DNA of 42,175 bases from a virus: IMG/VR virus record IMGVR_UViG_3300047666_000695, positions 1 through 42,175 of that record. The stretch is one strand, 5' to 3'. A program made the translations under genes and the position numbers. Shown here piece after piece: positions 2,940 to 39,937 of this stretch; position 1 is the stretch's first letter; every line of letters begins with the position of its first letter. Under the pieces are notes generated by a model, which saw only the letters and a list, made by a program, of their open reading frames with translations, was not told the DNA's origin and searched no databases.

Positions 2940-3193
2940 TGGTTCGCCTTTCCTTGCGATTGCTGCCGGATCTCTCGAACGTCTGTGTGTATTTCATCAA
3001 TCCGACGGTGCAGCGCCTCGTTTCGATCTGAAGAAAGCTGGTCACGTTCGTTAATTGTGTTAGCCAGCATTTCAATTTGTTTTTGATTTGTGAGCGCCCG
3101 CCTGACTATCCACCCGATAAACGATGTGGTGCCAATCATGCCCGCGACGACAAGCGAAACCGCCGCGTCAGATACATCCTGCATACTGATCAT
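2936..3193 (-). CDS. Membrane-anchored coiled-coil protein (85 aa)
   Basis: One membrane segment (about residues 10 to 30) is followed by a long charged coiled-coil helix (QKQIEMLANTINERDQLSS, then RRIDEIHTDVREIRQQ). Single-TM plus periplasmic coiled coil is the architecture of Rz-type spanins and XhlA-like lysis proteins. The ATG at 3193 overlaps the upstream stop and its own stop overlaps the amidase start. It competes with the 66-residue protein for the inner-spanin role. Confidence 0.55.
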   Translation of the reverse strand: MISMQDVSDAAVSLVVAGMIGTTSFIGWIVRRALTNQKQIEMLANTINERDQLSSDRNEALHRRIDEIHTDVREIRQQSQGKANQ

Positions 3194-3591
3194 GGACGGC
3201 TCCTGACATATGCGCCAAAGCCAAGGTGTGTGTAGAATATGAGAACGAACGGAATCGGAACCCAAAGGCTACCCGTGAACAATGCGGACCCCGGCTCAAC
3301 CTCTGTGAACGTCAGGACCGGCCCGATAACCCCGTAAACATTGACAAACCACCAGTCTTCAACTGTGTCCCAACCGTGCCAGCCCTGATCAATCAACTCA
3401 TATGCAGCATACGCCACACCCGCGAAAACAATCAGTGCCCACTTGTAAGGAAATTCGCCAAACGCCACGAACCAAACGAAGGTCACACCGTAGACCAAGC
3501 CCAAGAAACCAACAGCAACCGCGTGCGAGATTTGGTTTGTGGTGAACCCGTAAGGCTTGCCCGCGAAGTCATCAGATTTAAATAAACTCAT
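3190..3591 (-). CDS. Polytopic membrane protein in lysis region (133 aa)
   Basis: About four hydrophobic segments are visible (HAVAVGFLGLVYGVTFVWFV, WALIVFAGVAYAAYELI, FVNVYGVIGPVLTF and the VPIPFVLIFYTHLGFGAY region). The chosen ATG at 3591 overlaps the preceding gene by 14 bases; a TTG at 3603 in the same frame is an alternative. Position before the amidase suggests a holin, antiholin or exclusion protein, but no family is recognised. Confidence 0.5.
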   Translation of the reverse strand: MSLFKSDDFAGKPYGFTTNQISHAVAVGFLGLVYGVTFVWFVAFGEFPYKWALIVFAGVAYAAYELIDQGWHGWDTVEDWWFVNVYGVIGPVLTFTEVEPGSALFTGSLWVPIPFVLIFYTHLGFGAYVRSRP

Positions 3592-4093
3592 TTGGGCGCT
3601 CAAACTTTAGTGCAATCACAGATGCAGGCGTTGCGTCGATTACATCTTGCGCTGCCTGACGTTCGGCCACGTCTTGCACGATTTCAGGATTTGCAACGGT
3701 TACTGTCTCCGGCATACCTTCGTCGCCATACGTCAAGACATCGATTGTTGCGGGCAATGGGGCCACGGCTGACACAGTGACGAAGGTAACTGTTTCGCCG
3801 CCCTCGGATCTCTCCTCCGTGACCTCCGCACGGCCAACCGAAAGCACATACCTTTCCAACCGGGCAACCGCTGCCCGATACAAATGCAGTTGATAATTAA
3901 ACCGATTGTTTTCTGCGTTCACGATATTGTCGTTTAGCCATTGATTGGCCCATTCGACATAGGTCTGCGATGATTTTAGCAAACCCGTTTCGCGTTGGTG
4001 TTGCGATTTCTGCGATTCAAACCTACGCAACCCGCGATTTGTGGCTTGGATCACAGTCAAAGGCTTATCGCCTTTAAGAATAAATACAGTCAC
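3578..4093 (-). CDS. Hypothetical tail-region protein (171 aa)
   Basis: Soluble protein with a helical N-terminal half (QATNRGLRRFESQKSQHQRE, then a WANQWLNDN helix), a central strand-rich part (ETVTFVTVSAVAPLP) and an acidic helical C-terminus. It overlaps the preceding gene by 4 bases. Location right after the fibre genes fits a fibre chaperone or tip component, but no known family is seen. Confidence 0.5.
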   Translation of the reverse strand: MTVFILKGDKPLTVIQATNRGLRRFESQKSQHQRETGLLKSSQTYVEWANQWLNDNIVNAENNRFNYQLHLYRAAVARLERYVLSVGRAEVTEERSEGGETVTFVTVSAVAPLPATIDVLTYGDEGMPETVTVANPEIVQDVAERQAAQDVIDATPASVIALKFERPNEFI

Positions 4094-23075: not shown

Positions 23076-24347
23076 TTAGAATGGCAGGGCTGTTGCGGTC
23101 ATTGTCGGCTTAACAACAGGCATTTCATACGCGAGCGGATAGCCGAAAGCGTCGTTTTGGTGATCTAGGCCCGTTGTTTTGTCCGGTTCGCCTTGCTTGT
23201 TATACGGCTGTTGTTCAAGGCATCGCGCGGTCTCTGGGCATGTATCAGGGTTGACGTAAACGCGGCCACGCTGGAATCCCATGTTGACGGCTAGAACGCG
23301 ATCCTTTACGCGCGGATTGCTTGGCTTTGCACGGATCGCATAGCCTGCACCGCGTAGTAGTCCGATGTCAGACAGGGACGCACCCTTGCTTGAGGTGTTC
23401 TTGCCGCTGGCGTCGGGGTAGATCGTGACCGTGTGGCCCTCGTATCGGTCAGCAAGCGTTCGGATCATCGACGGGGTATCAACGCCGCCTTTTATTTCAT
23501 CAACGCAATGCCAGTCGTTTTCTCGCAGCACATACGCACATGCGGCCATGTTGCCCACGTTGAAGTCCATGCCTAACTTGATCGGCTCGCCTGGTCGCAA
23601 TGTCTCGCGGCTGCGGTTTGTCTCGCGGCTGTAGGAATTATAAACCGTTCCCGATGTCAGGTTGACAAACTGGCCTTCGATGTATGCGTCAATCAACTCA
23701 GCCGGATATGCAGCCCGCAAGTTATCAACGTAATCATCAGGCAAGTACGGATTGCTGTACGTTGCCGCTTGGAACATCTCATAACCCGGCGCAACGTCTC
23801 GCACCCATCGGTTGTATACAAATTTAAAGCCTTCAGGCGTTGTGTAGGCAGAAACCCGATTAAATGGCCGCTTGATTCCCTCTGGCCGCTGTCGGTTTCT
23901 AGCGATGATCTTATTCCAAGCCAATAGGGCTTTTTCGGTTTTCATCGTGTCAATTTCGTCAACGTGCGCCCGGTAGGTTTCATAACCAACAATGCGCTCG
24001 GGGTTGTCCATTGTCCGCATTAGAAAGTCGCCAAACCGTGGCCAAGACGTGTAAACGATATTTTCAGACTTGTTCCATTTGTGCGGAATGCCCTGCTCGG
24101 ATAGCTTTTCGCAGATCCTTGGCCCGGTGATCAGCCTTACGAGGTCATAGGTAGGCGCATACAGGCCGATAAGAGCCGTTGAACTATGCGCCGCGTCACC
24201 AATGGCGGAACATGCCATGACCTCGGACTTACCGGCCCCAAAGCCAGCAACGAACGCCGGATGCTTGGCATCAGATCGCAGGAAGTTCTCTTGTGGCTCA
24301 GTCAGTATCAGATTGATTGGGTTTTGCGCGCTCAATGTTCCACCCAT
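23076..24347 (-). CDS. terL: Terminase large subunit (423 aa)
   Basis: ATPase and nuclease are both visible: Walker A GFGAGKSE (residues 35 to 42), Walker B AHVDEID (about 127 to 133), and the RNase H-like nuclease acids Asp261 (LGMDFNVG), Asp312 (IYPDASG) and Asp395/399 (LDHQNDAFGYP). The open frame continues upstream, but the ATG at 24347 overlaps the small subunit by 50 bases and matches normal length. No SD, so likely coupled translation. It packs DNA into proheads. Confidence 0.92.
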   Translation of the reverse strand: MGGTLSAQNPINLILTEPQENFLRSDAKHPAFVAGFGAGKSEVMACSAIGDAAHSSTALIGLYAPTYDLVRLITGPRICEKLSEQGIPHKWNKSENIVYTSWPRFGDFLMRTMDNPERIVGYETYRAHVDEIDTMKTEKALLAWNKIIARNRQRPEGIKRPFNRVSAYTTPEGFKFVYNRWVRDVAPGYEMFQAATYSNPYLPDDYVDNLRAAYPAELIDAYIEGQFVNLTSGTVYNSYSRETNRSRETLRPGEPIKLGMDFNVGNMAACAYVLRENDWHCVDEIKGGVDTPSMIRTLADRYEGHTVTIYPDASGKNTSSKGASLSDIGLLRGAGYAIRAKPSNPRVKDRVLAVNMGFQRGRVYVNPDTCPETARCLEQQPYNKQGEPDKTTGLDHQNDAFGYPLAYEMPVVKPTMTATALPF

Positions 24348-24600
24348 CAAATATTTGCGGCGCGTTCTCAATCGGGATTTCGACAGTGCCTTGGATTGGC
24401 CTGCCGTATGCTCGATCAAGTAAAGCGTTTGCCGCTGTAACTCTTGCTGGTTCGCTTTGACCAGACGTTGCAATCTCTACCAAAACAGCCAGCGCCGTCT
24501 CAACATGCTCCTTAGCCATTGCGGCAAGATCACGCTTGGCAAGTGATGTTGCGCCCGGTTTTCGGCCTGCTCCGGTTCGCTTTCCGCCGTGAACAGTCAT
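24298..24600 (-). CDS. terS: Terminase small subunit (100 aa)
   Basis: Starts MTVHGGKRTGAGRKPG, a basic Gly-rich N-terminus common in small terminases, then a helical region (MAKEHVETALAVLVEIATSG) with ARVTAANALLDRAYGRPIQ, a pattern seen widely in terS of this type. It binds packaging sites and regulates the large subunit. It has only a weak SD (AAG) and follows a 333-bp region with a structured RNA element. Confidence 0.85.
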   Translation of the reverse strand: MTVHGGKRTGAGRKPGATSLAKRDLAAMAKEHVETALAVLVEIATSGQSEPARVTAANALLDRAYGRPIQGTVEIPIENAPQIFDGWNIERAKPNQSDTD

Positions 24601-24933
24601 CTTGATAAACTTGAATGATTGAATTGCATAGGCTTCCCGCCTTTCGTTAAGGCATCCCGCCTAGTTGGTTGTGTTTGAGCGCGGGCCAGATTCAACGCCG
24701 AGGCGTAGGGCTTACTGACTTGCCCTGCTTATTCGCCGCGCTCATGAGGTGTGACACATTGGCGATCAGTCCAACTTCCGCAGTGAAATCCTGCATTACG
24801 TTCACACCACATCAAAGCGGTTTATTTAACAACATTCACGCAAAAGGAACATAATTCACATTAAACGTGTAAACGCGCAACAGGCCTTACGTGTTATTGA
24901 ACGTAATTCCTCGCCCTCACAAATAGCAGGTTT
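24601..24933 (-). other. Intergenic region before terS
   Basis: This 333-bp stretch holds structured element R1 (24676..24821) and, beyond it, an AT-richer part with no convincing gene. A 34-codon frame (24692..24796) begins in R1, encoding SHLMSAA in the same place as the frame in R2, but its ribosome-binding site is poor. No packaging site could be identified by eye, though this is a usual position for one. Confidence 0.5.
24676..24821 (-). ncRNA. Structured RNA element R1
   Basis: On the minus strand: a hairpin ACCGC-TTTGAT-GTGGT, then GGTGTGA pairing with TCACACC 46 bases later, then a 9-bp stem TGAGCGCGG/CCGCGCTCA enclosing 51 bases with inner arms AGGGC/GCCCT and ACGCC/GGCGT. The same three stems, in the same order, recur in R2 about 1.1 kb upstream with different inner sequence. 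The T-G pair in the first hairpin forms only in minus-strand RNA (as U-G), so the element acts as late-operon RNA. Confidence 0.55.
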
Positions 24934-25095
24934 TCACCCCTTGTCAAGAACGGATGCTGGACCAAGATCCGCAAGCGTTGGATGCTTGGCTACCATAGCC
25001 GATGCTCGCAAATAATCATCGTCAAGCAGGACACGCGCAAATTCCCGTAGGAGGGTTATTTCAGCGTTGGCTTGGGTTAAGGTGCGAGGGGTCAT
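24934..25095 (-). CDS. Small hypothetical protein (53 aa)
   Basis: Found by direct reading. Starts MTPRTLTQANAEITLLREFA and continues as an acidic helical protein (RVLLDDDYLRASAMVAKHPT). Its ATG directly follows the stop of the 60-aa gene (TAGATG), a common coupled arrangement in this phage. No family recognised; position before the terminase suggests a late regulatory or packaging accessory role. Confidence 0.6.
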   Translation of the reverse strand: MTPRTLTQANAEITLLREFARVLLDDDYLRASAMVAKHPTLADLGPASVLDKG

Positions 25096-25278
25096 CTATT
25101 CGACATCATCAACGGATACGCGATCCGCCGCAGCAATAAGATCCTGATAGACTTCCTCACAGACTACGCGGCAGGCTACCTTAGGAGGCGCAAACCGTAT
25201 CCTTACGCGCCAATCGCCTGCGCTCAATGCAATCGGCTCACCTCCATGACGAATAAATATCTCTTGTGATTTTTTCAT
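25096..25278 (-). CDS. Small hypothetical protein (60 aa)
   Basis: Begins MKKSQEIFIRHGGEPIALSA; mixed strands and helix (GDWRVRIRFAPPK, then EEVYQDLIAAADR). SD GGGGAG lies just upstream and only 4 bases separate it from the previous gene. No recognised family. Part of the late leader operon before the terminase genes. Confidence 0.65.
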   Translation of the reverse strand: MKKSQEIFIRHGGEPIALSAGDWRVRIRFAPPKVACRVVCEEVYQDLIAAADRVSVDDVE

Positions 25279-25282
25279 TCTG

Positions 25283-25789
25283 CTAACTCCCCAAACAGTT
25301 TAACGCATTCCGAAGCGCCGCCAGATCGTAAGGCATTGCCTCCGCGTCTTTGAAACATTCGTTTTGCAGCATGGATGTTTTCACACGTCCGATTTTTTCG
25401 CGCATTTTGTAATAGGCGGCATATACTGCGGGATTTCCATCGCCAGCGTCGTGGCCGCCCTCAGATGTGTTTAGGCATGACGCAATTCCTGCAATTCCTA
25501 TTTCTGACAGATATACGCTGTAAAGGTTCTGAAACATGCGAGCGGCTTCTTCCTGATCCCGCGTAATTTGCTTTGTGACCATGAGTCGCCCGATCATATC
25601 GCAAGCCAGATCTATATAAGCCCCCTGTTCTCCCTGCTCAATGTTAGGCTTGGCCCATTTTCCGCGTGCTAGGCGCTCGCTTGTGGGCGTTGACGTATGG
25701 CCACGAGGCGAAGGCACGTAGTCGTCCTGTACGAGCTTGGTTGCGGCCTGTGCGCGTTTGTTGCGGAGTGATTGCGCTTTACTGGTCAT
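25283..25789 (-). CDS. Hypothetical late-leader protein (168 aa)
   Basis: Basic N-terminus (MTSKAQSLRNKRAQAATKLV), then a helical domain with RMFQNLYSVYLSEIGIAGI, a Gly/Asp-rich loop (NTSEGGHDAGDGNP) and YYKMREKIGRVKTSMLQNECF. Size, charge and position between the helix-turn-helix gene and the terminases fit a late-transcription or packaging regulator, but no known family can be named. SD AAGGAAC in the leader (AACCAAGGAACCC). Confidence 0.6.
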   Translation of the reverse strand: MTSKAQSLRNKRAQAATKLVQDDYVPSPRGHTSTPTSERLARGKWAKPNIEQGEQGAYIDLACDMIGRLMVTKQITRDQEEAARMFQNLYSVYLSEIGIAGIASCLNTSEGGHDAGDGNPAVYAAYYKMREKIGRVKTSMLQNECFKDAEAMPYDLAALRNALNCLGS

Positions 25790-25811
25790 CGGGTTCCTTG
25801 GTTCGTTTGTT

Positions 25812-25985
25812 TGAGCGCGGTGACGAATTGAACGTCCTACAGCGGGCTTCCCCAGTTAGTTGTGGGAATTGAACCCACCTGCCTACCGTTTCCCCTGCCG
25901 CGCTCATGAGGTGTGACAAGTGGGGGCGGGAGTATTGATAGCCGCCGCCTTTCGCATAATCCATAGTCACACCGCATCAAAGCGG
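25812..25985 (-). ncRNA. Structured RNA element R2, tRNA-like core
   Basis: Same layout as R1: hairpin CCGC-TTTGAT-GCGG, GTGTGAC pairing with GTCACAC, and the 9-bp stem TGAGCGCGG/CCGCGCTCA. The enclosed core looks like a class II tRNA: GGGGAAACGGTAGG resembles a tRNA-Leu D-arm, GTGGG-TTCAATT-CCCAC has CAA in the anticodon place (Leu), a long variable part follows, and GACG-TTCAATT-CGTC is a T-arm with the right loop. But the D-stem does not pair well, the acceptor has 8 to 9 pairs and no CCA is encoded. It may be a degenerate tRNA, a mimic or an unrelated fold. Confidence 0.5.
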
Positions 25986-25994
25986 CTTGGTCAT

Positions 25995-26094: not shown

Positions 26095-26505
26095 TCAAGT
26101 TCCCTCGTAAAAACTTCGCTGTTCGTCAGTAAGCGGCGATTCAGCGACAGTGTACACCCAGCCCTTGCGATTGTATTTAAACGTGACTAGCTCGCGCTCA
26201 AGTAAGCCGTCCATTGCCAGCCTTTGGAGCGTTTGCCGTGTGAGACCGCGTGTTCGTCCAAAATGCACTTCGGCTTCTTTTGTCTTGACTGCGCCCATTT
26301 CGGAAACGTAGGCGAGGGTCTTCCCTGGCCAGATTCTCGTGTTGGTGGCGTTTGGAATTTTCTTTGGCCTGCACCGCTCTCGCCTGCACCGCTCTCGCCT
26401 GACCGCTTTCCTAATCGCGCGGCCAATCATGTCTTCGACGGTTGCCGCGTAGTTTGGCAGCATAAATGGCTTTTGCATAACCAGCGTAAGTTCTTCAGAT
26501 GTCAT
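26095..26505 (-). CDS. Winged-helix DNA-binding protein (136 aa)
   Basis: The C-terminal half has a clear winged helix-turn-helix: AYVSEMGAVKTKEAEVHFG, then TRQTLQRLAMDGLLERELV and a wing YNRKGWVYTV. The N-terminal part is basic and contains the duplicated RRERCRRERCR encoded by 15-bp tandem repeats. SD AAGGAACC. Being second in the late operon it may be a late regulator, for example of packaging or of the R elements; this is inferred from position only. Confidence 0.7.
   Translation of the reverse strand: MTSEELTLVMQKPFMLPNYAATVEDMIGRAIRKAVRRERCRRERCRPKKIPNATNTRIWPGKTLAYVSEMGAVKTKEAEVHFGRTRGLTRQTLQRLAMDGLLERELVTFKYNRKGWVYTVAESPLTDEQRSFYEGT
26367..26410 (-). repeat. 15-bp tandem repeat in winged-helix gene
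   Basis: Two perfect 15-bp units (GCCTGCACCGCTCTC, plus strand) and a third imperfect 14-base unit. Slippage of a whole unit stays in frame and adds or removes five residues (ERCRR) in the basic N-terminal arm. Confidence 0.85.
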
Positions 26506-39491: not shown

Positions 39492-39613
39492 TGCAACCCC
39501 TCCTTGTCGTTAATGTTTCGAATGTCCAAAAAGTTCATTTTCCACATTACCCACGCTCCAAACGAAACAGACAATGGGAGGCCGTTAGTGTAATTCAAAA
39601 AATCCAAAATCAT
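39488..39613 (-). CDS. Microprotein (41 aa)
   Basis: Found by direct reading. MILDFLNYTNGLPLSVSFGA followed by WVMWKMNFLDIRNINDKEGLQ; possibly a short membrane-associated helix. It fits exactly between two genes with ATGA overlaps at both ends, the main evidence that it is real. Confidence 0.55.
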   Translation of the reverse strand: MILDFLNYTNGLPLSVSFGAWVMWKMNFLDIRNINDKEGLQ

Positions 39614-39783
39614 GTACGACCCTCCATTAATGCTACGCTGGCCTTAAGCGCCGCGCCACCGCAACATGCGTCGCAGCAAGGGTTGTCCTCAATGTCCAGC
39701 ATTACTGCCCGCAACCTATCAATCTCGCCGTAAGCCTGAGATAATTGTCCGTCCAACATCTTAACCATTTGCTTAGGTGTCAT
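39610..39783 (-). CDS. Small helical protein with Cys cluster (57 aa)
   Basis: Starts MTPKQMVKMLDGQLSQAYGE and continues as a helix (IDRLRAVMLDIED) with NPCCDACCGGAALKASVALM, a CC-x2-CC cluster that may bind metal. The ATG at 39783 overlaps the previous gene by 11 bases. Function unknown. Confidence 0.6.
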   Translation of the reverse strand: MTPKQMVKMLDGQLSQAYGEIDRLRAVMLDIEDNPCCDACCGGAALKASVALMEGRT

Positions 39784-39937
39784 CAGTATGACCCTCCTTC
39801 GGTGTAGCGTACAGGACATCATTAACGAAGTCCTGATACTGCTTTGCATAACGCGCCTTGCAGTGACATTCCGGTGCAGGCTTTCCGCAGTCCGCAACAC
39901 AGATTCGACCATCGTCAGGATGAGGTGTGAGGCTCAT
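39773..39937 (-). CDS. Small Cys-rich protein (54 aa)
   Basis: Begins MSLTPHPDDGRICVADCGKP, then APECHCKARYAKQYQDFVND. The Cys and His residues (C-x3-C, C-x-C, H) suggest a zinc-binding site. AAGGAGCC is the SD and the ATG overlaps the previous stop as ATGA. Function unknown. Confidence 0.65.
   Translation of the reverse strand: MSLTPHPDDGRICVADCGKPAPECHCKARYAKQYQDFVNDVLYATPKEGHTDDT

Follow-up and report, generated by a model that had tools for sequence, protein, structure and literature searches.

The window, that is the whole stretch of DNA analysed here, is a 42-kb viral contig (42,175 nt) with its terminase genes on the minus strand. Two units of similar layout, R1 and R2, lie on that same strand, R1 upstream of terS (100 aa; PHROG terminase small subunit, E = 0.0018) and R2 upstream of a 168-aa gene of unassigned function. 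An earlier reading made from the DNA letters alone (the sequence-only reading) had placed them before these two genes, and both positions were borne out. The features, by window position, are:

23076–24473, minus: TerL, which follows terS
24298–24600, minus: terS, downstream of R1
24676–24823, minus: R1, whole unit
24676–24684, minus: R1 stem P3, 3′ strand (CCGCGCTCA)
24685–24735, minus: R1 hypervariable insert 2, 51 nt, without relative among 40 units
24736–24746, minus: R1 CAT (P2 extension) and stem P3, 5′ strand (TGAGCGCGG)
24747–24754, minus: R1 stem P2, 3′ strand (TCACACCT)
24755–24801, minus: R1 hypervariable insert 1, 47 nt, without relative among 40 units
24802–24823, minus: R1 5′ hairpin CCGC-TTTGAT-GTGG and 5′ strand of stem P2
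24921–24947, minus: promoter TTGACA-N16-TGCTATTT of the terS-leader site, upstream of R1
25283–25789, minus: 168-aa gene, downstream of R2
25812–25988, minus: R2, whole unit
25812–25820, minus: R2 stem P3, 3′ strand
25821–25897, minus: R2 insert 2, 77 nt, with two T-arm-like hairpins
25898–25916, minus: R2 P2 3′ strand and P3 5′ strand (TCACACCTCATGAGCGCGG)
25917–25966, minus: R2 insert 1, 50 nt
25967–25988, minus: R2 5′ hairpin CCGC-TTTGAT-GCGG and 5′ strand of stem P2
25996–26023, minus: hairpin TTCCGCGCT..TGAGCGCGGAA, directly 5′ of R2

R1 and R2 share three repeats, of 22 nt (exact; 24735–24756 and 25897–25918), 22 nt (91%; 24802–24823 and 25967–25988) and 13 nt (exact; 24672–24684 and 25808–25820), which stand in identical order and are separated by unrelated sequence, as the sequence-only reading had described. 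Along the minus strand both units run from a CCGC-TTTGAT-GYGG hairpin through GGTGTGA/TCACACC (P2) to TGAGCGCGG/CCGCGCTCA (P3), and P2 can be extended by CAT/ATG with one Y-U mismatch. The two T-arm-like hairpins of R2 insert 2 (GTGGG-TTCAATT-CCCAC and GACG-TTCAATT-CGTC, the second directly adjoining the P3 strand) are of a type that is rare in shuffled sequences, and the GC-rich hairpin directly 5′ of R2 has counterparts 5′ of several other units. Using a family covariance model, R1 scored 97.5 bits and R2 96.0 bits on the minus strand, both being part of the training set, and the best plus-strand matches scored 10.8 and 8.8 bits.

Compared with shuffled sequences, the fold energies were unremarkable by themselves (z of −0.86 for R1 and −2.53 for R2), and minimum free energy was set aside as a proof of structure, being unconvincing for R1 and for the inserts as a set, so that the case for structure in R1 and R2 rests on comparison. 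A short in-frame peptide common to both units (VTPHERG) was likewise rejected as the product of conserved stem DNA, the reading frames otherwise diverging. Elsewhere in the window, two tandem GGCGGGA[T/A]GCC mini-hairpins lie in the terS leader (24609–24661) and are kept in nearly all TerL relatives, and a 15-nt tandem duplication (CCTGCACCGCTCTCG) occurs at 26362–26391, inside a 136-aa gene upstream of R2.

Spread and covariation of the scaffold

A pattern search of viral contigs for the conserved stems, followed by a stem-based filter, yielded 40 distinct units. The CACCTCATGAGCGCGG pattern alone also gave chance matches in coding regions (e.g. in L062, L065 and L071), and these were removed by the filter. 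With a covariance model and 78 related loci, the family was extended by approximately 48 units, located on other viral contigs and in two cultured roseophages. One of these phages is Sulfitobacter phage phiGT1, which infects Sulfitobacter sp. HGT1 and has a tandem pair of units (at approximately 39592–39923 of MT584811); the other is Octadecabacter Antarctic DB virus 2. Such independent copies rule out chance as the origin of the structure seen in R1 and R2. No family of Rfam 15 covered R1, R2 or the other units above its gathering threshold, and no tRNA or tmRNA was found in R1 or R2 by ARAGORN or RF00005. In bacterial genomes the pattern scan returned mostly GC-rich chance matches and no unit, and nothing credible emerged from searches of 292 Rhodobacterales genomes with the R1, R2 and R3 models, nor from an R1 search of 337 members of the class, 9–16 candidates being scored per genome in each case.

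Across 27 aligned units, P2 and P3 showed double changes at eight pairs (21 cells), and all five covariation measures exceeded those of 500 out of 500 shuffles and of every slid control. In the Octadecabacter virus, P3 is one base longer on each strand with pairing kept. One P3 pair is G-C in 16 and G-U in 11 of the 27 sequences, and a pair of the 5′ hairpin is G-U in 18 and G-C in eight; on the opposite strand these G-U cells would be C-A mismatches, and they therefore fit an RNA of the window's minus strand. The sequence-only reading had taken R1 and R2 for two minus-strand copies of an undescribed structured RNA, with one wobble possible in that strand only, and had set further copies with covarying stems beforehand as its test; these copies were found, the claim survived, and the wobble extends to the family at large. 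As regards the three shared stems it proposed, P2 and P3 covary, and the TTTGAT hairpin is supported by conservation. This hairpin is paired in 99% of cells with zero double changes and competes for bases with the extended P2; for these reasons it could represent an alternative state or even be no hairpin.

Hypervariable inserts and their exchange

Together P2 and P3 enclose two hypervariable inserts of approximately 35–65 nt and 36–110 nt respectively, which fall into 29 insert-1 families and 29 insert-2 families in the 40 distinct units. After identical copies had been collapsed, 15 pairs of units shared insert 1 only, 16 shared insert 2 only and none shared both, so each insert changes independently of its partner and of its genomic location. 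The clearest instance involves the window itself: the unit at the terS site of the related contig L059 is identical to R1 in the stems (50/50 nt) and nearly so in the 3′ flank (138/141), whilst both of its inserts resemble those of R1 at shuffle level only and its insert 1 matches insert 1 of R2 at 49 of 50 positions.

Two insert families, a (six sequences) and A (three sequences), showed compensatory changes when set against shuffled and slid controls, and family a recurs at L194 3081–3182 (plus strand) on an outer stem unrelated to the P2/P3 scaffold. These recurring families evolve as RNA. Support from covariation covers the scaffold and these two families, the remaining inserts being so far single sequences. 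As a set the inserts were not clearly more stable than shuffles (mean z 0.46 ± 0.18 for insert 1 and 0.05 ± 0.2 for insert 2). H-type pseudoknot-like folds at p ≤ 0.05 were seen in five of the 29 insert-1 families (e.g. L075, L068 and L084) and are thus not general; family C is pseudoknot-capable, without support from covariation. A 14-nt stretch of R1 insert 2 matches the reverse complement of part of L006 insert 2 with a score of 16, whereas shuffles reached at most 15; many comparisons having been made, this was taken as chance. The family a RNA of L194 lies near a tRNA (3667–3739) and a weak abiF match (3785–3836), in what looks like a small phage RNA island.

For families a and C, the 292 Rhodobacterales genomes yielded no host counterpart, in a search of weak sensitivity with few candidates scored per genome. 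The leader of a HipA-like gene on plasmid NZ_CP042265 of Qingshengfaniella resembles family G (E = 0.008), whose core pattern had two one-mismatch matches only in the 292 genomes; a host counterpart of family G before a HipA-like gene is at this sequence level a weak lead. On the same plasmid (L214, approximately 3190–3330, minus) two tandem palindromic family-G-like copies lie directly upstream of the HipA-like gene.

The shuffling of inserts and of whole units, with junctions such as that in L106 joining GAGCGC to CCGCTTTGATG, could reflect a cassette exchanged as DNA, the stems serving as recombination sites of attC-like or MITE-like kind and the RNA itself being inert. The G-U pairing of the stems (seen at one P3 pair in 11 of the 27 sequences) and the compensatory changes within inserts point instead to selection on one RNA strand, and an unsystematic look beside the units noticed no recombinase gene or target duplication; we regard this explanation as improbable. 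A little less improbable, though still unlikely, is a processing or punctuation element, in which a tRNA-like or RNase III-type scaffold would cut polycistronic phage RNA and the sequence of the inserts would be largely irrelevant. tRNAs do adjoin or lie inside several units, and the T-arm-like hairpin beside P3 in R2, L060 and L175 recalls an acceptor/T-arm stack, but most inserts are not tRNA-like, and in unrelated phages an insert family keeps its covarying structure as well as the detail of its primary sequence, as neutral filler would not. There are tRNA-Asn genes inside or between units (L029 181–254, and in L084 and L086 near the units of these contigs), and at L079 90–170 a tRNA-Ser body without a matching 5′ acceptor strand has the same kind of placement.

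The terS site, other settings and the abiF RNA

The promoter upstream of R1 (TTGAC-N16-TGCTATTT) is conserved at the terS site of 18 contigs and is a dedicated one. In eleven of these (L005–L009, L011, L013, L025, L026, L030 and L080) it is followed directly by a terminator without any unit, and in L021, L070, L059 and the window it is followed by one or two units, with extra sequence between promoter and unit in L059 and the window. In L010 and L012 the promoter leads to a tRNA(CAT) directly 5′ of the unit, then the unit, and then an intrinsic terminator which separates the unit from terS. The conserved promoter, the terminator of L010 and L012 and the empty promoter–terminator alleles together mark the unit as gene-like, and a conserved promoter on the same strand upstream of R1 lends indirect support to its transcription.

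Elsewhere, units lie between same-strand genes, mostly less than 400 nt from the next start, with several unrelated kinds of sequence upstream and many different kinds of gene downstream, no association with the same gene being conserved; some form tandem arrays. R2 and most other units do not precede terS, and units were also seen in complete phage genomes in which no relative of the window TerL could be detected, which implies that the element moves between phage lineages.

These settings bear on two of the functions that had been suggested from the sequence. Under the first, a cis-acting leader, the RNA would control the next gene through regulator binding, attenuation or a riboswitch-like mechanism, as the short distances to same-strand genes and the places of R1 before terS and R2 before the 168-aa gene would allow. 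This fits poorly with following genes that differ between phages, inserts that are replaced completely while the gene is unchanged (L059 versus the window), a terminator between unit and terS in L010 and L012, the common unit-free promoter-plus-terminator alleles and the tandem arrays, and we consider it unlikely, to about the same degree as a processing element. Under the second, a packaging-linked RNA or DNA site (pRNA-like, or pac/cos), the position of R1 directly before terS would be the point of interest. Such a role is the least likely of the alternatives and very improbable, since most units do not lie near terS and the terS site itself frequently carries no unit; units in phages without a detectable relative of the window TerL also speak against it. 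Leader, processing site and packaging-linked RNA, all three put forward by the sequence-only reading, are in this way disfavoured by the varied contexts, the tandem units, the terminator and a terS site that is replaced or empty.

What may occupy the site instead was seen in more distant relatives. In L032, L034 and L036 a tRNA(CAT) and then an abiF RNA (RF03085) precede the shared terS leader, with scores of 46.0, 44.1 and 38.7 bits respectively against a threshold of 37; L044 has a weaker match (32.4 bits), and L031, L035 and L046 were judged by eye to have a similar arrangement. In L050 an abiF RNA lies approximately 210 nt downstream of a unit, before a terS-like gene. The abiF RNAs are located as follows:

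L032, 2741–2778: abiF RNA (RF03085)
L034, 3751–3787: abiF RNA (RF03085)
L036, 4365–4401: abiF RNA (RF03085)
L050, 3903–3939: abiF RNA (RF03085)

The position shared by abiF RNA and unit is one of synteny (tRNA, RNA, terS leader), the TerLs of the phages differing by approximately 45% and the upstream promoter being different. At the terS site, units alternate with empty alleles and, judged from synteny in the more distant relatives, with the abiF RNA. R1/R2-type units have no RF03085 match. The abiF RNA acts in trans, binding its HEPN toxin directly and so neutralising it (PMC12373285). A search of 20 such records, many of them fragmentary, detected no Abi_2 toxin gene, and the abiF RNAs of these phages are possibly solitary RNA antitoxins for counter-defence. 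In the same phage group, int-alpA RNA-like matches just under the Rfam threshold were also noted (L157 5165–5240 and L044 7498–7561).

A probable mobile RNA gene with a putative role in counter-defence

We conclude, with a probability of about 0.85, that the R1/R2-type unit is an independent, exchangeable noncoding-RNA gene and not a fixed leader or packaging RNA. R1 and R2 would be two alleles of a mobile gene cassette, in which two adjoining helices, P2 and P3, form a constant scaffold for a pair of inserts; these would be swapped independently by recombination through the conserved stem sequences. The RNA would be expressed and most likely act in trans during infection. As a decoy or a mimic of an antitoxin, each insert might bind and neutralise an RNase or toxin of the host's defences or another effector that binds RNA, and insert turnover would be driven by turnover of the host defences; alternatively, the inserts of the cassette could serve as tRNA-like bait. 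The main functional clue for counter-defence is the genomic position shared with the abiF RNA, and hypervariability with module exchange is what we would expect from an arms race with host RNA-binding effectors. A decoy or antitoxin-mimic role has in our estimate an even chance of being right.

Several known systems offer partial parallels. Phage PhiTE escapes ToxIN by means of an RNA that mimics the antitoxin and evolves through recombination and the expansion of its repeats (PMC3475682), and this pseudo-ToxI is likewise an intergenic noncoding RNA of a phage that undergoes recombination, some insert-1 families of the units being able to form H-type pseudoknots. The units differ in having a constant two-helix scaffold with two independently exchanged inserts, their role being putative, and no sequence match to a ToxI-type antitoxin was found in a comparison within Rfam families. 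The abiF RNA resembles them in lying beside the shared terS leader in distant relatives, directly behind a tRNA and without a toxin gene, but is a single short conserved hairpin motif. Phage tRNAs and tRNA-like RNAs adjoin units, and T-arm-like hairpins or, in L079, a tRNA body are present within some P3 inserts, though R1 and R2 themselves are free of ARAGORN or Rfam tRNAs. The cyanophage motifs wcaG, manA and glnA, reported together with abiF RNA in S-CREM1 (PMC9964418), are also structured marine-phage RNAs of unknown or regulatory role, but are classed as cis-regulatory single motifs and do not match the units.

Phage RNAs that mimic an antitoxin are known in kind; the mechanism put forward for the units is a proposal, and there is a substantial chance that they amount to more than a variant of that kind. 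To our knowledge, phage RNA counter-defence is represented by few cases, and we know of no counterpart of a fixed RNA scaffold with two independently exchanged hypervariable domains; a literature search of limited coverage found none. Tentatively, and with the odds somewhat against it, marine phages may share a pool of interchangeable RNA domains on a constant scaffold, comparable to constant and variable regions, as a decoy arsenal recombined among unrelated phages and directed against various defence proteins. If the role in counter-defence is true, the scaffold would be a searchable handle for several dozen insert families, every one of them a candidate ligand of a defence protein yet to be discovered, and the two cultured phage–host pairs that carry the unit make this directly testable. 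Even if the role is a different one, modular exchange inside a structured RNA is unusual.
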